Origin: a virus
Virus record (IMG/VR): IMGVR_UViG_3300030419_004166
Coordinates: 1 to 22,430 of that record
Direction: 5' to 3' (one strand)
DNA length: 22,430 nt
Shown: piece after piece, positions 2,833-22,430 of the stretch
Layout of the letters: every line of letters begins with the position of its first letter
How positions within the stretch are numbered: the first letter of the stretch is position 1
Notes under the pieces: generated by a model
Told to the model about the DNA's origin: nothing
Seen by the model: only the letters and a program-made list of their open reading frames with translations
Databases searched by the model: none
Made by a program: the position numbers and the translations under genes

Positions 2833-3066
2833 TTAAAATGGCAAATCGTCATCTTTGAATTGTTCTGATTTCTCTTTTGGAATAGAAAAACTTAAACCGA
2901 AATACTTTTTACCTGCTTTACTTTCATTTATCCAAGCAGATACATTATATAATGTTCCATCTACATTGGCTTGTCCAGTAAAGTCTGGTTGTTTTTCTTC
3001 TTCCTTCCTATCGTTCTTAAATAACGATCCTTTGTTTTCTTTGTGTTCGTATGGCTTATTTGACAT
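2833..3066 (-). CDS. Small protein with SSB-type C-terminal tail, 77 aa
   Basis: The start chosen is ATG at 3066 because GGAGG stands 8 bases upstream and the ATG overlaps the previous stop as TAATG; an in-frame ATG 5 codons earlier (at 3081) lacks this support. After an N-terminal GSLFKNDRKEEEKQPDFTGQ segment comes a short predicted beta-rich core (VDGTLYNVSAWINESKAGKK, then YFGLSFSI). The protein ends DDDLPF, nearly the DDDIPF tail by which bacterial single-stranded DNA-binding protein recruits replication and repair proteins. The core is shorter than a full SSB OB-fold (about 110 aa). Possible roles are a minimal DNA-binding protein or a mimic that competes for SSB partners. Its neighbours are DNA-metabolism genes. 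The tail is a direct observation; the function is an inference. Confidence 0.65.
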   Translation of the reverse strand: MSNKPYEHKENKGSLFKNDRKEEEKQPDFTGQANVDGTLYNVSAWINESKAGKKYFGLSFSIPKEKSEQFKDDDLPF

Positions 3067-3359
3067 TATCTTAACCTCCAAGTATAAGTTAATCTACCCC
3101 AGTTACCCATTACTTTTTTATCTGTCTTTAATAAATAACCCTCTTTGGCTAAATCAGATATTGCTCTACGGATAGAAGTAATAGGGGTGTTTAGATCAAT
3201 CGCTTCTAAATGTTTAAGAGCAGATAAAACATCATCAGCACAATAATAAGCAGTAGGCATTGCTTGAAATATACCTAATACTTTTTGCTTTTGATTTTTT
3301 GCTTTATCAAAGTTTAATCTTAATTGTTTTTCCTTTTCTCTCGTTGTATTGTAATACAT
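3066..3359 (-). CDS. Winged-helix DNA-binding protein, 97 aa
   Basis: ATG at 3359 is preferred over an upstream in-frame start because GGAGAGG lies just before it. Residues about 25-95 fit a winged helix: a helix with QKQKVLGIFQAMPTAYYCAD, a second with DDVLSALKHLEAIDLN, a recognition helix PITSIRRAISDLAKEGYL, then a basic wing ending in LTYTWRLR. This layout is common in phage regulators and replication-associated proteins that control pairing of small genes. An 88-base gap upstream (3360-3447) separates it from the preceding gene and may hold a promoter; the downstream SSB-tailed gene is coupled by TAATG. The DNA-binding call is fairly secure; its target is unknown. Confidence 0.65.
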   Translation of the reverse strand: MYYNTTREKEKQLRLNFDKAKNQKQKVLGIFQAMPTAYYCADDVLSALKHLEAIDLNTPITSIRRAISDLAKEGYLLKTDKKVMGNWGRLTYTWRLR

Positions 3360-3447
3360 ATCCTCTCCATTGTTTTTGTATTTTAAGCACAAAGATACTA
3401 TTAGGTTAAAAACCCATTTACATAAACCGTTGATGTTCATTTATAAT

Positions 3448-5863: not shown

Positions 5864-6053
5864 TTTTTTCTCCTTTGTCAAATACTTTATATTGTTGCCA
5901 AGATGATGAAACTATCTCATCAATAATTTCTCCTATCTCTTTATGATTATACTTTTCAAAATGAATTTCTTTAATCAAATCAATAATGCTATTCCAATTT
6001 GATGTCTGTCGTCTATTTTCTTGTGTTAGCTGTAAATAAAGATCATTATCCAC
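5850..6053 (-). CDS. Hypothetical protein with GTG start, 67 aa
   Basis: Not recognised. The start is GTG at 6053, sharing a base with the stop of the replication gene (TAGTG) and preceded by AAGGAG at 8 bases. The product is a polar helical protein (IIDLIKEIHFEKYNHKEIGE; IIDEIVSSSWQQYKVFDKGE). Coupling directly behind the replication-initiator-like gene suggests coordinated dosage, but no role is visible in the sequence. Confidence 0.6.
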   Translation of the reverse strand: MDNDLYLQLTQENRRQTSNWNSIIDLIKEIHFEKYNHKEIGEIIDEIVSSSWQQYKVFDKGEKNENV

Positions 6054-6799
6054 TATCTATACTCCTTTGTTGGTTGTATCTGTTCATCGCAACACGAAAC
6101 ATATAAATCTCTATATTCCGAAGTTGTCTTTTGCTTGTCGCAATTCTTACAATGATAAATATATACTATCTCATCATCTTTGTTATTAATCAATATATCG
6201 TTCCATTTCTCTTGGTTTAAATAGGTTTCTGGATTGGGGATATATTGTGGGTTTTGCCATTGATCTGATTGCTTGTGGCTTTCTAATGCTTTAAGAATAT
6301 CGTCAATAGGGTATTTGTTTTTTAAAAATTTCTCCTGCACTTTTTTCTTTCCTACCTTTTTAGGATAACTCTCCCAGAATAATATAAATTCTTTATTTCT
6401 TTCTTTATTACTTTCTTTTAATAGGGTTAGGTGTGGGTTAGGTGTGGGTTGGCTCTGGGTTAGTCTTGGGTTGCTACCATGGTAAAGTTCATAATTATTA
6501 AGGTTTAGGTGGGTTATATGTGGGTTAGTTTTTATAGTAATCATCTTTGATTTTTCTAACTTTTTTAATAAAGTTCTCAATTTTTGCCTTGAAATACCAT
6601 TTCGTTTACAAAAAATCCTTTGAGAAAATATAATTTCTCCACGATTAACTTGGATTACTTGATCATTGATTAGTGCTGATGATTGCTTTATACTGGCTCT
6701 CATCAGCATATCTAACCAACATTTCAAATACAAGGGATTGTCCCATATCCAATTATCTTGTATCTTGCGATATAGTTTGACGAAACTATTATTCATCAT
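6053..6799 (-). CDS. Replication initiator / helicase-loader-like protein, 248 aa
   Basis: The N-terminal half reads FVKLYRKIQDNWIWDNPLYL, then an RGEIIFSQRIFCKRNGISRQ segment and KLRTLLKKLEKSKMI: the usual opening of phage replisome organiser proteins, in which a winged helix binds the origin. A polar linker (about 115-140) follows, then FWESYPKKVGKKKVQEKFLK and PETYLNQEKWND, a C-terminal pattern often seen in the same group and thought to contact the host helicase. At the very end is a possible zinc site (CKNCDKQ ... SCCDEQ). The start was set at ATG 6799 (ATG 6796 is equally possible); an in-frame TTG at 6868 would read through the small membrane-protein gene. No clear ribosome site precedes the ATG, so coupling to the upstream gene is likely. 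Family assignment rests on recognisable motifs without an alignment. Confidence 0.65.
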   Translation of the reverse strand: MMNNSFVKLYRKIQDNWIWDNPLYLKCWLDMLMRASIKQSSALINDQVIQVNRGEIIFSQRIFCKRNGISRQKLRTLLKKLEKSKMITIKTNPHITHLNLNNYELYHGSNPRLTQSQPTPNPHLTLLKESNKERNKEFILFWESYPKKVGKKKVQEKFLKNKYPIDDILKALESHKQSDQWQNPQYIPNPETYLNQEKWNDILINNKDDEIVYIYHCKNCDKQKTTSEYRDLYVSCCDEQIQPTKEYR

Positions 6800-6801
6800 A
6801 T

Positions 6802-6909
6802 TTATAATAGAACAATGTAATAAAAAGCTATTAAACCTATGAATATGTATGATACAATAAGATACCAATACATAAACCAGTTTATAAATTCAAATATAGC
6901 TCTTAACAT
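6802..6909 (-). CDS. Small membrane protein, 35 aa
   Basis: A tiny gene fills the space between the 190 aa protein and the replication gene. Its ATG overlaps the previous stop (TAATG), with GGGGGTAAATA before it, and its stop is 2 bases before the next ATG. The product (MLRAIFEFINWFMYWYLIVS, then a hydrophobic IFIGLIAFYYIVLL) is almost wholly a single membrane segment rich in tryptophan and tyrosine. The role is unknown; small size and coupling keep confidence moderate. Confidence 0.5.
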   Translation of the reverse strand: MLRAIFEFINWFMYWYLIVSYIFIGLIAFYYIVLL

Positions 6910-7481
6910 TATTTACCCCCTATTGCTTTTTCTAAACTTGCTGTTGCTTTCTCATATACTCGCAAGTTAGATCGTATAGCATTTTTATTATCCTTTAACC
7001 ATTTTTTAGCATTTTCATCTAAAACCCCAAGCTCTACTGCTTGTTTTTCTAACTTAACAAATGCCTCAATTTGCTTAATCGTAGGGGATTGTTTCTGGAA
7101 GTCCTCTGCCTCAACATCAGAGTAGAAAGCATTTTTGCCATACAATCCTAATAGTTTTAAGGTTGCTCTCGCTTTGCCTCTTTTCTCTGCCATTGCCCAA
7201 AAGTATTGATTACGACAATTTGTATCGTTTGCCTCTCCAAAGGTTGTTTCCTCTATTCTTTCATCATATCCATTGTGATCATTTGGCTCTATGTATGCTA
7301 CAACCTTTAAAGCAACAGCAGGGGAAACATCAAGATTGTTTGACATTTCAAATTTAACATTTTCAAGATCTATAATCTTTGAAACTCCGTCAAAAGATAT
7401 AATTCTATTTCCTGCAAGAAACCAAAAATCGTCCTCGTCAAGATTATATCGTTTCATTAAACTATCTATTGGATTACTCAT
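6909..7481 (-). CDS. Possible single-strand annealing protein (Rad52-like fold), 190 aa
   Basis: The arrangement of alternating strand segments (FWFLAGNRIISFDGVSKII; AVALKVVAYIEP; ERIEETTFGEAN) before a helix with FWAMAEKRGKARATLKLLGL resembles phage Rad52-like annealing proteins (Erf/Sak type), where a conserved A-x-x-R-A-x-x-R helix follows a beta sheet. A YSDVEAEDF acidic segment and a helical, lysine-rich C-terminus follow. If correct, it would anneal complementary single strands in recombination and would fit with the nearby resolvase-like nuclease and SSB-tailed protein. The match is by pattern only, so the function is tentative. ATG is preceded by GAGGTGCTATA and overlaps the upstream stop (TAATG). 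Confidence 0.45.
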   Translation of the reverse strand: MSNPIDSLMKRYNLDEDDFWFLAGNRIISFDGVSKIIDLENVKFEMSNNLDVSPAVALKVVAYIEPNDHNGYDERIEETTFGEANDTNCRNQYFWAMAEKRGKARATLKLLGLYGKNAFYSDVEAEDFQKQSPTIKQIEAFVKLEKQAVELGVLDENAKKWLKDNKNAIRSNLRVYEKATASLEKAIGGK

Positions 7482-7690
7482 TATAGCACCTCATCAAATA
7501 GTTCTGGCATAGAAGTTCCACATACATAACAAATTGCTAATTTGCAATGATGTGGTATTCTGCCTGTTCGTTTCCACCTGTTTATCGTATTCTCGTGAAC
7601 TTCTAATCGTTGGCTTAACCACCTTTGCGATCTGCCCTCTGAAAATAACCAGAGTTTAACTGGATCATACTCATTATATTTATTACTCAT
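7481..7690 (-). CDS. Cro/XRE-like helix-turn-helix protein, 69 aa
   Basis: Residues about 20-45 (RSQRWLSQRLEVHENTINRW) form a helix-turn-helix in which LSQRLEVHENTINRW is the turn and recognition helix, followed by KRTGRIPHHC as in YdaS/Cro-type regulators, where a GRIP motif follows the recognition helix. Length is typical of Cro. An AAAGGAGAACAG site precedes the ATG and the gene overlaps its neighbours on both sides. It is probably a transcriptional regulator of the early genes. Its likely operators are not proven; the palindrome and direct repeats in 12.4-12.5 kb are candidates. Confidence 0.75.
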   Translation of the reverse strand: MSNKYNEYDPVKLWLFSEGRSQRWLSQRLEVHENTINRWKRTGRIPHHCKLAICYVCGTSMPELFDEVL

Positions 7691-9324: not shown

Positions 9325-9647
9325 TTGGTTTTATCATTAAGTAGTTTATTCATATTCTCATCAGTCCATACTAAACCCTCTTGTAGAAAAGATACAAGTT
9401 CGTTTTCGTTTATCTGATACATAACCCACCATTTATCAGTTCCACTATTCCTAACTACTATATCTATAAAACAACTTTCACCACCTACAACAAAAACTAT
9501 ATCCCCTGTCCAACTTGGACAATCAGACATATAATTTTTAATAATAGTCATACGATCTTTGTCAATCTTATAATCATCTTTTGTTGAACCCCAATGATTA
9601 TATAATGTTTCACTTACTTGCTTATAAGTTTTGCTATCTACTTTCAT
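9321..9647 (-). CDS. Hypothetical protein, 108 aa
   Basis: Not recognised. GAGAGGATCAA precedes the ATG and the stop overlaps the SEC-C gene. The protein is mixed alpha/beta, with an N-terminal helical part (TYKQVSETLYNHWGSTKDD), a beta segment (WTGDIVFVVGGESCFIDIVV) and WWVMYQINENELVSFLQEGL. It has no membrane segment or known catalytic motif. The tryptophan-rich core suggests a folded globular protein. Confidence 0.6.
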   Translation of the reverse strand: MKVDSKTYKQVSETLYNHWGSTKDDYKIDKDRMTIIKNYMSDCPSWTGDIVFVVGGESCFIDIVVRNSGTDKWWVMYQINENELVSFLQEGLVWTDENMNKLLNDKTK

Positions 9648-9784
9648 TTGATCCTCTCTTTGAAATTTATACTGCTAACTGCTATAACTGGACTAACTAA
9701 CATATAAGGTAAGGGTAATAATGAAAATGAGATATAGCAAGTTAGCAATATAAACATATAATTTATTTTATTAGTTGTTCTCAT
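9644..9784 (-). CDS. Possible small membrane or secreted peptide, 46 aa
   Basis: Read from the gap upstream of the 108 aa gene; the stop shares ATGA with that gene's start. The product has a basic N-terminus and a long hydrophobic stretch (MFILLTCYISFSLLPLPYML), then a short polar tail. It could be a membrane anchor or signal-peptide-like segment; LTC near residue 16 is a weak lipobox. No ribosome site is visible upstream of the ATG, so translation would need coupling to the preceding frame. Uncertain. Confidence 0.4.
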   Translation of the reverse strand: MRTTNKINYMFILLTCYISFSLLPLPYMLVSPVIAVSSINFKERIK

Positions 9785-9786
9785 AT

Positions 9787-9936
9787 TTAGTGTATTATAA
9801 ACATATTATTTAAAATATACAACAAAAAAGTTAGTAAATATAGTTTTCTCGTCTGAAAAAAGTTGAAAACTCTGGTAAAAAATATAATGAAAACTCTGGT
9901 AAAAAATATAATTCTTTCATAGATTATAATTCTCAT
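9787..9936 (-). CDS. Doubtful small ORF spanning tandem repeats, 49 aa
   Basis: ATG at 9936 has AAGGAAT before it and overlaps the stop of an 8-codon frame that itself follows a copy of the repeated leader. The 24-base tandem repeat falls in frame and gives two copies of IIFFTRVF. The product is highly hydrophobic and phenylalanine-rich, as AT-rich non-coding DNA often is in translation. It could be real and coupled to the next gene, or simply repeat DNA. Confidence 0.25.
   Translation of the reverse strand: MRIIIYERIIFFTRVFIIFFTRVFNFFQTRKLYLLTFLLYILNNMFIIH
9865..9912 (+). repeat. 24-bp tandem repeat, two copies
   Basis: Two perfect adjacent copies of a 24-base unit beginning GAAAACTCTGGTAAAAAATA. 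The core AAAACTCTGGT recurs twice at 10700-10735 with a different flank. On the minus strand, the coding strand here, the core reads ACCAGAGTTTT. Probable protein-binding or promoter element. Confidence 0.8.
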
Positions 9937-9981
9937 ATTCCTTTCTTAAAGGTTATCATTTATAACCTCTTTGTTAGTTGA

Positions 9982-10013
9982 AAAAAAAGCCACTTTAATT
10001 AGTGGCTTTTTTT
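9982..10013 (-). terminator. Strong bidirectional rho-independent terminator
   Basis: Seven A, then GCCACT, a 6-base loop, AGTGGC and seven T form a 13-bp perfect stem in which the run of T after the hairpin is present on both strands. It begins directly after the stop of the 60 aa gene at 10015, so it should stop the minus-strand transcript coming from the right and divides the small-gene block into two transcription units. Confidence 0.85.
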
Positions 10014-10014
10014 A

Positions 10015-10197
10015 TTATTCTGTTATTATTGTAATAATTGCTTTTTTATTACCAATAATTTTTCTTGCTCTATTTATTGCTTTGCGATCAGTTGAACAGC
10101 ATAAATTACATATTTTGATATAATTATGCTCTTGAGGTAAATCCTCAAAATTATACCAACCATTATTATAGCTTGTTATTTTATATTCTTTTTCCAT
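10015..10197 (-). CDS. Hypothetical protein, 60 aa
   Basis: Not recognised. ATG at 10197 is preceded by AAAAAAAGAGGTATAAA, a variant of the repeated leader. The product (MEKEYKITSYNNGWYNFEDL; IKICNLCCSTDRKAINRARK) contains a CNLCC cluster and a basic segment. Its first residues MEKEY match the start of the 66 aa protein at 10464-10664, and the leaders are also alike, which suggests duplication of the leader and start. It ends at a strong terminator. Confidence 0.6.
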   Translation of the reverse strand: MEKEYKITSYNNGWYNFEDLPQEHNYIKICNLCCSTDRKAINRARKIIGNKKAIITIITE

Positions 10198-10220
10198 TTT
10201 ATACCTCTTTTTTTATTATA

Positions 10221-10442
10221 TTATATAATTCCATTTTCTTTAAATTCATCAATTAGATCAAATTGTATAGCTATTTTGAAAAAATAGTTAGTTATAATAG
10301 CTATTTCACCATAACTAATATTTTGCTCATTACCTACTTGTTTTTGATAATTAATAGCCTGTTGTATTGCTTGATCTTTATTTTCTGGTAAGTTATTATA
10401 AAGATTATAATGTTTTAATGTATTATCTCTTGTTAGTTTCAT
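10221..10442 (-). CDS. Hypothetical protein, 73 aa
   Basis: Not recognised. The leader CAACTAACAAAAGGGTATAA stands before ATG 10442. The protein is polar and helical (LTRDNTLKHYNLYNNLPENK; YGEIAIITNYFFKIAIQFDL) with one moderately hydrophobic patch not long enough for a firm membrane call. Confidence 0.6.
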   Translation of the reverse strand: MKLTRDNTLKHYNLYNNLPENKDQAIQQAINYQKQVGNEQNISYGEIAIITNYFFKIAIQFDLIDEFKENGII

Positions 10443-10463
10443 TTTATACCCTTTTGTTAGTTG

Positions 10464-10664
10464 TTATTTATCTATTAAAATATAATCTGATCCATTAAAT
10501 ACATATTTATCTTTACTTTCAATATGTTTATTATACTTTTTAATGAACCTTTTTAAGTCGTCATATAGTTTTTTATCTAATGTTTTTATGTGAATTGGTA
10601 ATAAATCAACCTCACAGCCAACACCAACCATATTTATACTATATGTTGTATATTCTTTTTCCAT
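10464..10664 (-). CDS. Hypothetical protein, 66 aa
   Basis: Not recognised. ATG at 10664 follows AACTAAAAAAAGAGGTATAA. The product (MEKEYTTYSINMVGVGCEVD; TLDKKLYDDLKRFIKKYNKH) appears alpha/beta. It begins with the same MEKEY as the 60 aa protein downstream. The paired AAAACTCTGGT repeats lie about 36 bases upstream of its start, making it the first gene after that element. Confidence 0.6.
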   Translation of the reverse strand: MEKEYTTYSINMVGVGCEVDLLPIHIKTLDKKLYDDLKRFIKKYNKHIESKDKYVFNGSDYILIDK

Positions 10665-10699
10665 TTTATACCTCTTTTTTTAGTTGTTATTTATAATTC

Positions 10700-10749
10700 A
10701 AAACTCTGGTTATAATTATAGTTGAAAACTCTGGTTATAATTATAATTG
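10700..10749 (+). repeat. 25-bp tandem repeat, two copies
   Basis: Two adjacent 25-base units beginning AAAACTCTGGTTATAATTAT differ by one base. They share AAAACTCTGGT, with a TATAAT at the same distance downstream, with the 24-bp repeats at 9865-9912. The 25-base period means that, unlike those copies, it cannot be in-frame coding repeat. Likely regulatory. Confidence 0.8.
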
Positions 10750-10780
10750 AATTTTTTTATTTTTTTTTGGTTTTTTCTGA

Positions 10781-10900
10781 TCATTTAAATATTTCTTTAT
10801 TGGTTTTTTTTATTCCATAGTGTCTAATACTTAATAAATAAACAATTAGAACCATTAATAAAAAAAAGTAATAAGTAAATAAAAGTATTTCTTTAAGCAT
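10781..10900 (-). CDS. Small membrane protein, 39 aa
   Basis: The ATG lies 8 bases inside the end of the 83 aa gene, with AAGGATTTT upstream at a long spacing. The product (MLKEILLFTYYFFLLMVLIV, then YLLSIRHYGIKK) is one membrane helix with a basic, probably cytoplasmic, C-terminus. The charge pattern and coupling support it; the weak ribosome site and small size lower confidence. Confidence 0.45.
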   Translation of the reverse strand: MLKEILLFTYYFFLLMVLIVYLLSIRHYGIKKTNKEIFK

Positions 10901-11144
10901 ATTTCTTAAAATCCTTTAATCTTATTTTTATATTATATTCTTTTAAATATTCTTTTAAATCTTGATATTCATCAAAAGTTTTACTATCAAAAATTGGCTG
11001 TTGGTGTCTTTTGTCATAACATACGAACCAATAGATAATCCAATCTTTTTTGCCTTTTGCCTTATCAATACAACATTTAAATATTTGATAAGTAAAATAT
11101 TTATCTTTTTTAATAGTTGCTTTTCTTATTTCATCTTTTATCAT
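10893..11144 (-). CDS. Hypothetical protein, 83 aa
   Basis: Not recognised. AAGGTGATCAA precedes the ATG. The protein is lysine- and aromatic-rich (KKDKYFTYQIFKCCIDKAKG; DWIIYWFVCYDKRHQQPIF), probably alpha/beta, with no full membrane segment. The C-terminal EYLKEYNIKIRLKDFKKYA is basic and helical. Confidence 0.6.
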   Translation of the reverse strand: MIKDEIRKATIKKDKYFTYQIFKCCIDKAKGKKDWIIYWFVCYDKRHQQPIFDSKTFDEYQDLKEYLKEYNIKIRLKDFKKYA

Positions 11145-11153
11145 TTGATCACC

Positions 11154-11318
11154 TTAAATATTGGCTATTATTAGCAATACATAGAACAAAAAGAACATTA
11201 AAAAACAAGTCAAAAACCCTAATATATATTCTTTTATTTGTTCTTTTTTCTTGTGTGCTTTGCTTTGCTCATTGTCAAAATATCGCTTTAAAGCTATCAT
11301 TTTAATATTATTTTTCAT
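11154..11318 (-). CDS. Small membrane protein, 54 aa
   Basis: Read from the gap between 11144 and 11333. AAGAGGTTAGAAT precedes ATG 11318. A basic, helical first half (KMIALKRYFDNEQSKAHKKK) is followed by a membrane helix (YILGFLTCFLMFFLFYVLLI) near the C-terminus. The positive-inside rule puts the N-terminal part in the cytoplasm. Function unknown. Confidence 0.55.
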   Translation of the reverse strand: MKNNIKMIALKRYFDNEQSKAHKKKEQIKEYILGFLTCFLMFFLFYVLLIIANI

Positions 11319-11332
11319 ATTCTAACCTCTTA

Positions 11333-11632
11333 TTATTTAATCATAGTCTCAAAATTCTCAGATAATAAGGTATAAGTATAATCTTTTTCATTGTAATAAA
11401 AAGAATTTACTTTTATTCCTGTGTCTTTTAAAAATTTAAAACCTTGACTTTTAATGTTGCCTATTTCATAGTCGTAAGATTGTATTACTCTTTTTTTATT
11501 TCTTAAATCATTAATTACCACCCTTGAACCCTTGTAATTAGTAGGTGGTAAGTATTTAATATTAAATGCTCTTAAATGGTTTAAAGTATATTCTTTAGAA
11601 TTATTACCTATTCTTATTTTATATTCGTTCAT
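11333..11632 (-). CDS. Hypothetical protein, 99 aa
   Basis: Not recognised. The repeated leader (AACTAAAAAAAGAGGTGTAA) stands before ATG 11632. The product is basic and beta-rich (MNEYKIRIGNNSKEYTLNHL; SRVVINDLRNKKRVIQSYDY; VNSFYYNEKDYTYTLLSENF), with no membrane segment. It looks like a small globular protein. Confidence 0.6.
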   Translation of the reverse strand: MNEYKIRIGNNSKEYTLNHLRAFNIKYLPPTNYKGSRVVINDLRNKKRVIQSYDYEIGNIKSQGFKFLKDTGIKVNSFYYNEKDYTYTLLSENFETMIK

Positions 11633-11634
11633 TT

Positions 11635-11814
11635 TTACACCTCTTTTTTTAGTTTATTTTTTAACTTTCTCAATAAGTTTAATTCTATTGCTTTTATTTT
11701 CCTCTTATCGTTCCAATTTAAAGAAAAGAATTTCTTATTTTTTAATCCTCTTGTTAAAACCCTATATGATTTAATTACTCCTATCTCATGTTCAATTAAT
11801 TGTCTTTCTATCAT
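11635..11814 (-). CDS. Hypothetical basic protein, 59 aa
   Basis: Not recognised; read from the gap between 11632 and 11939. AACTAACAAAAAGAGGTAAA stands before ATG 11814, and its last codons lie in the next gene's leader. The product (MIERQLIEHEIGVIKSYRVL; LNLLRKLKNKLKKEV) is basic and helical; the C-terminal lysine-rich helix could bind nucleic acid, but no motif confirms this. Confidence 0.55.
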   Translation of the reverse strand: MIERQLIEHEIGVIKSYRVLTRGLKNKKFFSLNWNDKRKIKAIELNLLRKLKNKLKKEV

Positions 11815-11832
11815 TTTTTTTACCTCTTTTTG

Positions 11833-11937
11833 TTAGTTTAAAATCATTAATATTACACCTAAAACCATTAAATAAAACCCTATTTTAAGATTAAAGAATA
11901 AAATTCTTAACCCTATATTTACAATAAAATCAATCAT
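11833..11937 (-). CDS. Small membrane protein, 34 aa
   Basis: A very short frame starts 1 base after the stop of the two-helix protein upstream; AGGGCTTAAA precedes the ATG. The product (MIDFIVNIGLRILFFNLKIG, then FYLMVLGVILMILN) is one or two short hydrophobic segments. It ends in the AACTAACAAAAAGAGG leader of the next gene. Plausible membrane peptide, but size limits certainty. Confidence 0.4.
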   Translation of the reverse strand: MIDFIVNIGLRILFFNLKIGFYLMVLGVILMILN

Positions 11938-11938
11938 T

Positions 11939-12181
11939 TTAAGCCCTACCTTTTTTAATGGTTGCAATACTACCAACAAAACCAATTACCATAGTAATTA
12001 GTAAATATGGTAGAATTGTAATTAGTTGATTTGCTACTATTTCCTGTTGTATTACATCATTACTGAAAAAGCTAATATTTCCACTAAAATCTGAAACTGA
12101 TAACAATTTTATCAGGTAATATTCAAAGATTGCAACACTACCTAAAACCATTACCATATAAGTTCTAAATTTATTTTTCAT
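11939..12181 (-). CDS. Two-helix small membrane protein, 80 aa
   Basis: ATG at 12181 follows CTAACAAAAAAAAGAGGTGC. Two membrane helices are visible, at about residues 8-27 (YMVMVLGSVAIFEYYLIKLL) and 54-73 (TILPYLLITMVIGFVGSIAT), with a polar loop between and basic ends. Size and topology would also suit a holin, but no lysin gene lies nearby and its place in the early-type run argues against lysis. The function is left open. Confidence 0.6.
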   Translation of the reverse strand: MKNKFRTYMVMVLGSVAIFEYYLIKLLSVSDFSGNISFFSNDVIQQEIVANQLITILPYLLITMVIGFVGSIATIKKGRA

Positions 12182-12201
12182 TTTTGCACCTCTTTTTTTT
12201 G

Positions 12202-12399
12202 TTAGTTAGTATTTAAGTCGTTGATAGCTTGATCGCAAATCTTATTATGAAGTTTTGATTTCTCAATCTTCCATTGTTTTAAATTGCTATCAAAGAATAT
12301 ATCATTTTTGCCTTTTTTGATCGGCTTGTTGCTTTTGTGCTTTTTGTATTCCTTACTTAAAGCTCTCATTTTTTCAGATCTTTTGTCTTTATTTCTCAT
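12202..12399 (-). CDS. Hypothetical basic protein, 65 aa; first gene of the leftward run
   Basis: ATG at 12399 is chosen because AACTAACAAAAAGAGGTTTA stands before it; an in-frame GTG at 12435 would translate the leader itself. The protein is very lysine-rich (MRNKDKRSEKMRALSKEYKK; HKSNKPIKKGKNDIFFDSNL), probably helical and nucleic-acid-binding by charge only. It is the first gene of the leftward run, next to the control region, a place often held by early takeover proteins. Confidence 0.55.
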   Translation of the reverse strand: MRNKDKRSEKMRALSKEYKKHKSNKPIKKGKNDIFFDSNLKQWKIEKSKLHNKICDQAINDLNTN

Positions 12400-12433
12400 T
12401 TTTAAACCTCTTTTTGTTAGTTGTTTATTTCTC

Positions 12434-12447
12434 ACTTCGTTCGAAGT
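12434..12447. promoter_or_regulatory. Palindromic operator candidate
   Basis: ACTTCG-TT-CGAAGT is a perfect 6-base inverted repeat with a 2-base centre, in otherwise AT-rich DNA, about 35 bases before the first leftward start codon. Position and symmetry suit a dimeric repressor such as the Cro-like protein encoded at 7481-7690. Confidence 0.45.
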
Positions 12448-12474
12448 TAATACACCTTTATTTAAAAAGCAAAC

Positions 12475-12508
12475 ATTTTATTTAGTTATCTATTTATTTT
12501 ATTTAGTT
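12475..12508. repeat. Two 13-bp direct repeats, two helical turns apart
   Basis: ATTTTATTTAGTT occurs at 12475-12487 and again at 12496-12508, exactly 21 bases apart, so both copies face the same side of the helix. This suits cooperative protein binding. It lies upstream of the leftward genes. Confidence 0.6.
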
Positions 12509-12934
12509 GCATTGATTGTATTACATTGTAAACCCTACACCCTAACTTTTTAAACAGCTAAACCTAACCTTTTAAAATCCTTTTTAAATCCTTTTTGTTA
12601 CTGGTTGGTTGCTTGTTGCTTGTTTTGATCTTTTGAAAATCTTTTTTTTGCTTGTTGGTTGTTGGTTGCTACCCCATAGGAGCGTATGAAACCTTATCCC
12701 CCTTTAGTATCACCATTACGCACAAAGTAGTGAAAAACGACTAACCAAGTATAAAAATATAATAATTTAATACTCTATATATAATAATCAATAATTAAAA
12801 ATATTCCTCTAAGTTATTGATATTGTTACAGTTACAAGGATTTATAGGTAAGAAATTTTTGACGGTTTTTTACTGGACAACCAATCCAAACTTTATAGTG
12901 GTATTTTTTTGGTTTTTTTGATTAAATTGTGTGT

Positions 12935-19498: not shown

Positions 19499-22430
19499 AT
19501 GGCTAATTATACATCATCACACACAGGAGCTGTTATCGATGCAGCAGTTACTAAAATTGCTGCGACTACTTCATCTGCAACAGAATTAAATATATTAGAT
19601 GGCGTTACTGCAACTACTGCTGAAATAAACATATTAGATGGCGTTACATCTACAGCAGCAGAACTTAATATACTTGATGGAGTTACTTCTACAACGGCAG
19701 AGTTAAATATTCTCGATGGAGTAACTGCTACAGCATCAGAAATAAATATTTTAGATGGAGTTACATCGACTACTGCAGAACTTAATATTTTAGACGGAGT
19801 AACATCAACTGCAGCAGAACTTAATGTATTAGATGGTTATACTGGTAGCGTAACTGAATTAAATTATTTAGACACTTTACACGCTACAGGTGTAACGTCT
19901 ACCGAATTTGATTATCTTGATGGGGTTACATCAAACATACAAACACAGCTTAATTCAAAGATTGAAGCAACTCTTACTTCAGAGCAAGTCCAAGATATTG
20001 TCGGTGCAATGGTTTCCAGTAATACAGAAACAGGTATTACCGTAAGCTATGAAGATGGAGATGGCACTTTAGACTTTGTAGTGGCTACTCAATCAGATAA
20101 TAATTTTACAACTACACTTAAAAATAAGTTAGATGCAATAGAAGCAAACGCAACTGCAGATCAAACAGACGAAGAAATACAAGATGTTGTAGGAGCAATG
20201 TTTAGTAGTAACACCGAAACTGGAATTACTGCAACTTACCAAGACGGCGACGGAACAATAGATTTAGTTGTTGGCACTTTAAATCAAGATACTACTGGAA
20301 ATGCAGCTACTGCAACAGCATTAGAAACAGCAAGAACAATACACGGAGTTTCTTTTGACGGAAGTGCAAATATAGACTTAACTGAAGTAGTGCAAGATAC
20401 AGTTGGTGCGATGTTTAGCAGTAATACTGAAACAAATATAACAGCAACTTACCAAGATAGTGATGGAACAATAGATCTTGTCGCTACTGGAGATGTAACT
20501 CTTGTTACTTCTTCTCACGATTATTTATCTATTAGTGGACAAGCTATTACACTTGGACAAATTGATATTAGCGATGATACGAATTTATCAGCAGGAACAA
20601 ATATTTCTTTAAGTGGAGATACACTTAACGTAGATGACGCATTTTTAATTAATAGTGGAAATGACACTACCTCTGGAACAATTACAGCAGCAGGATTTAC
20701 TACTACTGGAACATTGGCAGCAGGATTAGCAGATATAGATGATGTTGTTATTAATGGAACAACAATCGGACACACAGACGATACAGATTTAATTACATTA
20801 GCAGATGGAAATGTAACGATAGCAGGGGAATTAGACTTAACAACATTAGATGTTTCTGGTAACGCAGATATAGATGGAACGTTGGAAGCTGATGCTATTA
20901 CAGTAAATGGAACTGCCTTAAATACAGTTATTGCAGGAGTTACAGTATCAAACGCTACATTAGCTTCTACAGTAACTATAACTGACAAATCAGATAATGT
21001 AAATTATGATGTAGTATTTGGTAATAGCACAAGTGCTTTATACGATGATACTGGTGCATTGTATTATAATCCAAGCACAGGAACTTTAAGAGTTCCAAAT
21101 TTAAATGTAGCAGGAACAACTACACAAGTAGATACAGTAACAATGGAAGCACAAAATGCAGTTGTCTTTGAAGGTGCAACTGCCGATAATTATGAAACTA
21201 CATTATCTATTGTTGATCCAACAGCAGATCACACACAATACTTAATTAATCAAGGTGGTTATATTCCAGTATTAGCAGCAGCTACGACTACTGCTATTTC
21301 ATCAACTCCTGCTGAATTAAATATTCTTGATGGTGCTACAGTTGTAGTGGGGGAAATTAATTATTTAGATTTAGGTTCAACAGCAATAGGAACTGCTATA
21401 GCTTCTAAAGCAGTTGTATTAGACGCCAATAAAGATTATACAGGCGTAAGAAACCTAACGATTACAGGAGAGTTAGATGGTGGTAGTTTAGATATTAGTG
21501 GAGATGCAGACATTGATGGAACTCTTGAAACAGATGCGTTATCTATAAATGGCACAGCAGTAAGTTCTACTGCTGCTGAATTAAATGTATTAGATGGATA
21601 TACTGGTAGTGTTACAGAATTAAATTATTTAGATACCTTACACGCAACAGGTGTAACCGATACTGAATTTGATTATTTAGATGGAGTAACATCAAATATT
21701 CAAACACAGCTAGATGCAAGGCAGCCGTTAGATGCTGAACTAACAGAATTAGCTACAATGGGTAGTAACACAGCTGCTGCGTTAGCTGATCTAACACAAG
21801 CAGAAGTACAGATACTAGGCGGTGCAACAGTAAGTACTGATGAACTTAATATCCTCGATGGTGTTACTGCCAGTACTGCTGATATTAACCTCATTGATGG
21901 TGTTACAAATGGTACAGTCAGTGCTTCTAAGGCTATCATCACAGACGCTAATAAGGATATTACAGGTGGTAGAAACATTACCATCACTGGTGAACTCTCT
22001 GCTGCTAGTTATACAGGAACTGGTATCCTTACAGATGGTGTTAACGCTACTGCTTCCGATACGAAATTACTGTCTTCTGAAGCCTGTGATGAAAGGTACT
22101 TTAAACAATCTAGTTCCGAGACATTAAAGGATGGTGTATCTTGGGTATCTACTGATGCTTATATAGCAACAGCAGCAGCTATTGATGACCGAGTAGCTTC
22201 ACTAGTAAATGAAGTTGGTGGTTTTGTAGCTATTGCTAATGAAGGAAGCTTCCCAACAACTAACCCTGATATCGAGAATAAAACAGGTACCATTGTCTCT
22301 ATTACAGCTTTAAGTGCTGACAGGACAGCTAGTGGTAGTGGCGTCTTAACGACAGGATTTACAACAACTGGTAGTGCAGCAGTTACTATTACTGGATGTA
22401 CTAACAACCAAGTATATAAGCAAGGTTACG
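19499..22430 (+). CDS. Repetitive tail fibre protein (3' partial)
   Basis: The frame is open from ATG 19499 to the right edge (977 complete codons) with no stop, so the gene continues. AGGAAATACT precedes the ATG. Seven 13-residue repeats near the N-terminus (residues 25-115, AELNILDGVT with variants) are followed by GSVTELNYLDTLHATG, then three copies of a longer unit (QDIVGAMVSSNTETGI and two relatives), then ELNILDGAT and ELNYLDTLHATGVT units again later. Alanine, threonine, glycine and aspartate dominate, suggesting a long beta-structured fibre. Repeats of this sort are well known in tail fibres and receptor-binding proteins of marine phages. The C-terminal, receptor-contacting part is outside the window. 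Codon choice changes near 21,780-21,860 (see findings). Confidence 0.85.
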   Translation, partial: MANYTSSHTGAVIDAAVTKIAATTSSATELNILDGVTATTAEINILDGVTSTAAELNILDGVTSTTAELNILDGVTATASEINILDGVTSTTAELNILDGVTSTAAELNVLDGYTGSVTELNYLDTLHATGVTSTEFDYLDGVTSNIQTQLNSKIEATLTSEQVQDIVGAMVSSNTETGITVSYEDGDGTLDFVVATQSDNNFTTTLKNKLDAIEANATADQTDEEIQDVVGAMFSSNTETGITATYQDGDGTIDLVVGTLNQDTTGNAATATALETARTIHGVSFDGSANIDLTEVVQDTVGAMFSSNTETNITATYQDSDGTIDLVATGDVTLVTSSHDYLSISGQAITLGQIDISDDTNLSAGTNISLSGDTLNVDDAFLINSGNDTTSGTITAAGFTTTGTLAAGLADIDDVVINGTTIGHTDDTDLITLADGNVTIAGELDLTTLDVSGNADIDGTLEADAITVNGTALNTVIAGVTVSNATLASTVTITDKSDNVNYDVVFGNSTSALYDDTGALYYNPSTGTLRVPNLNVAGTTTQVDTVTMEAQNAVVFEGATADNYETTLSIVDPTADHTQYLINQGGYIPVLAAATTTAISSTPAELNILDGATVVVGEINYLDLGSTAIGTAIASKAVVLDANKDYTGVRNLTITGELDGGSLDISGDADIDGTLETDALSINGTAVSSTAAELNVLDGYTGSVTELNYLDTLHATGVTDTEFDYLDGVTSNIQTQLDARQPLDAELTELATMGSNTAAALADLTQAEVQILGGATVSTDELNILDGVTASTADINLIDGVTNGTVSASKAIITDANKDITGGRNITITGELSAASYTGTGILTDGVNATASDTKLLSSEACDERYFKQSSSETLKDGVSWVSTDAYIATAAAIDDRVASLVNEVGGFVAIANEGSFPTTNPDIENKTGTIVSITALSADRTASGSGVLTTGFTTTGSAAVTITGCTNNQVYKQGY
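19571..19843 (+). repeat. 39-bp tandem repeats encoding AELNILDGVT units
   Basis: Seven near-identical 39-base units in frame encode 13-residue repeats such as STAAELNILDGVT. DNA copies differ mainly at third codon positions, so they are under protein-level selection. Related but diverged units appear again at about 21,300-21,900. Confidence 0.85.
19865..20490 (+). repeat. Three diverged copies of a longer protein repeat
   Basis: Within the tail fibre, segments VGAMVSSNTETGITVSY, VGAMFSSNTETGITATY and VGAMFSSNTETNITATY each precede a D-x-DGT-x-D-x-V motif. The three are spaced by about 190-200 bases. They indicate repeated duplication of a fibre shaft unit. Confidence 0.7.

Follow-up and report, generated by a model that had tools for sequence, protein, structure and literature searches.

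Tandem repeats at two control regions of an uncultured marine phage: possible fast-changing binding sites of a phage regulator

Introduction

Phage regulators that recognise repeated sites at promoters fall into several described types. The sites of CII in phage lambda are direct repeats of the form TTGC-N6-TTGC at promoters with a poor -35 box, and the operators of the Cro and C-protein (XRE) type are palindromic. In cluster A mycobacteriophages (L5, Bxb1), the operators and stoperators are asymmetric, lie in promoters and short intergenic gaps and are oriented with transcription; they are 13-bp sites, present in 20-30 dispersed copies and bound by a monomeric two-domain protein of roughly 180 residues, and their consensus differs between subclusters together with the cognate repressor (PMC9283540, PMC6550527). 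A small regulator of phage 186, Apl, also binds direct repeats arranged in tandem close to early promoters (PMC7498355).

The sequence analysed here, referred to as the window, comprises all 22,430 bases of a virus record of an uncultured marine phage, which is probably a phage fragment and may be incomplete. Its terminase has many close relatives among metagenomic viral contigs, whereas the relatives among deposited phages are all below 60% identity. A search for TerL in genome contigs, carried out to find a host, gave no match, as did a blastn search of the repeat region against phage records, and a literature search on pelagiphage promoters with tandem repeats yielded nothing. The window carries two pairs of tandem direct repeats. 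Like the lambda CII sites, they are direct repeats close to a promoter whose -35 box is weak, and the phage encodes a small HTH protein; however, their period of 24-25 bp is far longer, and they lie upstream of the -35 box, not across it. They differ from the system of phage 186 as well, since the Apl repeats are one helical turn apart and Apl is also an excisionase.

Results

The two pairs of repeats

Exactly four copies of the 11-mer AAAACTCTGGT are present in the 22.4-kb record, all of them within the two loci and on the plus strand (starts at 9866, 9890, 10700 and 10725), and a search of the window with three mismatches allowed gave six matches against 4.0 expected, thus no extra site above chance. 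The window-type unit is CAGAGTTTT. Its first bases vary between the copies (TTG, ATG, TTC, TTG), its core, which includes G/C positions, is invariant in all four, and its 3' hexamer is TATAAT in three of them and TATAGT in the first copy of locus 2, so that the motif followed by TATAAT, as described in an earlier note on this DNA, applies to three of the four copies. The copies of locus 1, at 9864-9912, match each other completely, and those of locus 2, at about 10697-10749, do so at 24 of 25 positions; the two loci share 89% across 28 bp. Two tandem pairs are present in the window and none in each of 200 dinucleotide shuffles; likewise, an 11-mer with at least four G/C is seen four times, as opposed to a shuffle maximum of three. 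The repeat searches and the shuffles therefore confirm the paired 24-bp and 25-bp repeats with a common motif as real. In the 6-bp spacer, the loci differ at three A/T positions and the copies inside one locus are identical, which looks like local duplication once the loci had diverged and makes the constant spacer length a weak argument for selection on position. RNA folding of the repeats themselves was not significant. All four copies of the asymmetric unit have one orientation, and all nearby genes lie on the minus strand. Repeats of another kind, 39 bp long, are found at 19529-19879 and 21275-21907 within a long ORF (19499 to the record end) with the motif LDGVTxTxAELN, which probably encodes a tail protein. 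The features around the two loci are listed in Table 1.

Table 1. Coordinates of the repeat loci and neighbouring features in the window.
Feature	Position	Strand	Basis or remark
69-aa Cro/XRE-fold HTH protein, candidate regulator, downstream of the locus-1 promoter	7481-7690	-	homologs, fold
Leader with long hairpin, overlapping a 46-aa ORF (9644-9784)	9665-9755	-	fold z -5.5; covariation
49-aa ORF overlapping locus 1, repeats in frame; judged not a gene	9787-9936	-	no homologs among the loci compared
Sigma70-like promoter candidate, TTGTAT-17-TATAAT, downstream of locus 1	9794-9822	-	sequence; same place in relatives
Locus 1, two 24-bp direct repeats, gene-sense unit ATTATATTTTTTACCAGAGTTTTC	about 9863-9912	-	repeat searches
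Hairpin directly after the terminator, ATG in the loop	9948-9970	-	fold z -3.1
Intrinsic terminator, start of the module	9982-10013		similar sequence in L027, L071, L091, L105
66-aa gene directly downstream of locus 2	10464-10664	-	ORF position
Locus 2, two 25-bp direct repeats, gene-sense unit ATTATAATTATAACCAGAGTTTTCAAC	about 10695-10749	-	repeat searches
78-bp segment holding locus 2, absent from L005	10700-10777	-	alignment; L005 joins both sides directly

Locus 1 within a conserved intergenic module

Locus 1 sits in an intergenic module that is present in about 20 relatives and consists of a terminator, a hairpin, the tandem-repeat interval, a sigma70-like promoter and a covarying leader hairpin in this order, all of which are found in the window. 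Several relatives share the terminator stem of the window. In the hairpin directly after it, the relatives also have an ATG in the loop, but their stem is another one. Among 15 sequences, both sides changed in 7 of the 13 pairs of the leader hairpin; the covariation score is 0.44, whereas shuffles gave 0.23 and sliding the pairing no more than 0.14. The analysis also brings out this conserved module and its covarying leader hairpin, for which an Rfam search gave no match. A leader hairpin with compensatory changes before the next gene is also present in L011, L012, L030, L091, L104 and others, and in L184, L063/L178, L071/L180 and L088 the leader carries an extra insert of at most roughly 90 nt (GTTCGGAACTAAAGTTGGAAATCCGATTAAAT...ATTCC), apparently a second structured element.

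The interval between the terminator and the promoter contains one or two copies of TATATTATATYTCASAGGGTA in about ten relatives; where there are two, they are mostly spaced by 22-24 bp, and an AT-rich stretch precedes them. Among the diverged units of these relatives AGGGT is kept, whereas neighbouring positions vary. Where AGGG repeats are missing, the -35 box is TTGACA or TTGACT in several relatives. The simple rule of a weak -35 box wherever there are repeats was given up, since TTGATA is present in some AGGG phages. In the window, locus 1 likewise lies between the terminator and the promoter-like sequence, but its control region resembles that of none of the relatives, so that its assignment rests on position and on the contrast with relative L085. 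An array of the form TTTTATATTAT...CAGGGTA, which resembles the AGGG units, was seen on the minus strand of L187 (6145-6255), a contig of mixed composition that was not among the terminase or exonuclease relatives found.

Locus 2 and the early small genes

Both loci were previously described as lying just upstream of small minus-strand genes. Locus 2 ends about 33 bp ahead of the start codon of its downstream gene; locus 1, on the other hand, is about 80 bp away from gene 9644-9784, with the promoter-like sequence in between. Compared with L005, which is 99% identical to the window across the structural genes, locus 2 is a clean presence/absence of 78 bp. The early-gene elements of two other relatives have a setting like that of locus 2, with two AGGG units in L063 and two copies of a 22-bp unit, GGCACTATAAA, in L085; both pairs follow an A-rich or C-rich stretch and stand about 30-60 bp before the early gene. 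Judged by this setting, they are likely counterparts of locus 2. The small early genes of the window (10179-12656) share a leader, AATTATAAATAACAACTAAAAAAAGAGGTATAAAATG, and the gene content at these leaders differs between the window and L005, which suggests cassette exchange at early-gene leaders.

Distribution of the repeats in relatives

The motif searches covered the window, 115 relative loci, 24 whole records, viral contigs and genome contigs. The exact motif as a tandem pair was absent from all relatives searched, and none of these sets gave a related tandem copy; the 48 tandem matches in viral contigs had unrelated contexts, many of them in repetitive coding-like DNA. The proposal that the motif should recur in related phages is thus not borne out for its sequence, but it is for its position, where other repeats are found. 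As counterparts with other units occur at locus 1 and likely ones at locus 2, the positions recur and the repeat sequence is exchanged: by these alignments, the position of the repeats is conserved and their sequence is not. Different repeats at the same places in relatives suggest fast-changing binding sites of a phage gene regulator.

The candidate regulator

The 7481-7690 protein was predicted by AlphaFold2 to adopt a five-helix Cro fold (pLDDT 92). Foldseek returned XRE/Cro matches with TM 0.7-0.79 and E above 0.01, and the Pfam matches to Cro/CI/YdaS were weak. An assignment of this protein to CII on the basis of helix resemblance was supported by neither Pfam nor PDB searches; Phage_CII is not matched among the families listed for it. 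In most relatives, an HTH homolog follows the module and precedes the SSAP gene. The comparison with L085 is informative here: the SSAP is 97% identical to that of the window, the winged-helix/exonuclease stretch 98%, and the replication genes are nearly identical, whereas the HTH protein has 35% identity and the repeats are different. Since both phages share the winged-helix stretch and differ in HTH protein and repeats, the Cro-like protein is favoured over the winged-helix protein (3066-3440), which had also been proposed as a binder and is disfavoured because the control regions of L085 differ. In L050, HTH sequence of one class flanks a different helix, and the promoter has TTGACA without repeats. 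The Cro-fold protein is the best candidate regulator.

The recognition segment of the HTH protein covaries with the locus-1 control region in Mantel tests, which remove shared ancestry only partly, with r=0.61 and p=0.001 given SSAP (12 lineages) and r=0.635 and p=0.0002 given the leader (18 lineages); leader versus HTH given the control region was about 0. When the SRQ/SKQ/TRQ helix class was left out, the HTH covaried with the 38-bp promoter core (r=0.57), as opposed to r=0.11 and p=0.16 for the upstream repeats. The idea of operators for the Cro-like protein is indirectly supported by the covariation with the control region as a whole, but outside this class the signal lies in the promoter core. 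Furthermore, the AGGG repeats of L063 are in its early element, its own module has none, and its HTH is unlike that of the AGGG-module phages, so repeat type and HTH are not one-to-one; AGGG units co-occur with several HTH types (L063, L023). In view of the ancestry remaining in the Mantel tests, the promoter-core signal and L063, we infer from sequence comparison, rather than observe, that the protein binds the repeats and that binding alters transcription.

Discussion

The reading we prefer, with a probability of roughly 0.45, is that the repeats are asymmetric sites for a phage regulator, most likely the 7481-7690 protein, duplicated at two control regions. The regulator would bind the duplicated sites, which all point the same way with respect to transcription. 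At locus 1 this would be ahead of the promoter for the operon that includes its own gene, at locus 2 ahead of an early small gene, and occupancy would activate or repress both start points. Besides the promoter-core signal and L063, the lack of locus 2 in L005 and the asymmetry of the sites count against this reading, as Cro-fold proteins usually bind palindromes as dimers.

A doubtful reading, though one that carries weight, is that the repeats bind another factor, be it a protein of the host or another phage regulator, or represent upstream AT-rich or curved promoter elements, with the HTH protein acting only at the promoter core. The position of the AT-rich units upstream of promoters agrees with this, as do the covariation in the promoter core without the SRQ class and the variety of HTH types found with AGGG units. 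However, a unit sequence that is wholly changed between close relatives such as the window and L085 would be unusual for a conserved host factor, and elements that only bend DNA have no need of the invariant G/C-bearing core. It is unlikely, although conceivable for the window taken by itself, that the pairs are neutral slippage duplications in AT-rich intergenic DNA and that recombination copied one locus to the other. At equivalent positions, relatives have independent tandem pairs of their own, the diverged units all keep AGGGT and the two loci retain their 89% identity, against which stand the near identity of copies within a locus together with the differing periods (24 and 25), the absence of the exact motif from relatives and of locus 2 from L005, and the recombination of gene leaders in this region.

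Locus 1 could also be coding, with IIFFTRVF as an 8-residue repeat of a 49-aa membrane peptide whose ORF has a plausible ribosome-binding site and an in-frame 24-bp period; this is very improbable, since periods of 25 bp in locus 2 and 22 or 24 bp in relatives, together with frame-breaking indels between close relatives, contradict it. Replication-origin iterons, suggested earlier, are hardly to be expected: short direct repeats in AT-rich DNA would fit, but there are just 2+2 copies at two sites 0.8 kb apart and away from the initiator gene, the units of relatives are at promoters, and the DnaD-like replication initiation gene (6053-6868) contains a better iteron-like cluster of its own (GGGTTAGGTGT repeats, 6401-6528), itself a possible origin judging from its sequence. 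An unusual plus-strand promoter, raised at the same time, is unsupported, because a sigma70 promoter on that strand should have TTGACA-like and TATAAT-like boxes 16-18 bp apart, whereas TTGAAA and TATAAT are separated by 14 bp and no plus-strand gene follows; a normally spaced promoter candidate lies on the minus strand downstream of locus 1.

If the repeats are sites of the phage regulator, control points and a candidate regulator are identified for a widespread group of uncultured marine phages, and the pairs window/L085 and L050 offer natural material for studying how phages swap regulatory specificity. We tentatively raise the further possibility, itself doubtful, of a marine phage family in which a one-domain Cro-fold protein reads operators made of tandem direct repeats, and in which repeat pair and protein are swapped together as a specificity module inside a fixed frame of terminator, hairpin, promoter and leader.

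Among the known systems, the Cro/C-protein (XRE) type is close in the predicted fold of the candidate, which matches C.BclI, CylR2 and 434 Cro (TM about 0.7-0.8), and in the location of the HTH gene downstream of the control region, as with autoregulatory operators; the repeats of the window, however, are not palindromic. Compared with cluster A, the window has two tandem pairs, that is 4 copies in a 22.4-kb, possibly incomplete record as opposed to about 20-30, and a 69-aa one-domain candidate protein; because copy number and protein type differ, we do not regard it as a member of that type. Its sites are nevertheless asymmetric, oriented with transcription and placed at control regions, with a sequence that varies between relatives, and by analogy the repeats appear to work most like the operators and stoperators of cluster A.
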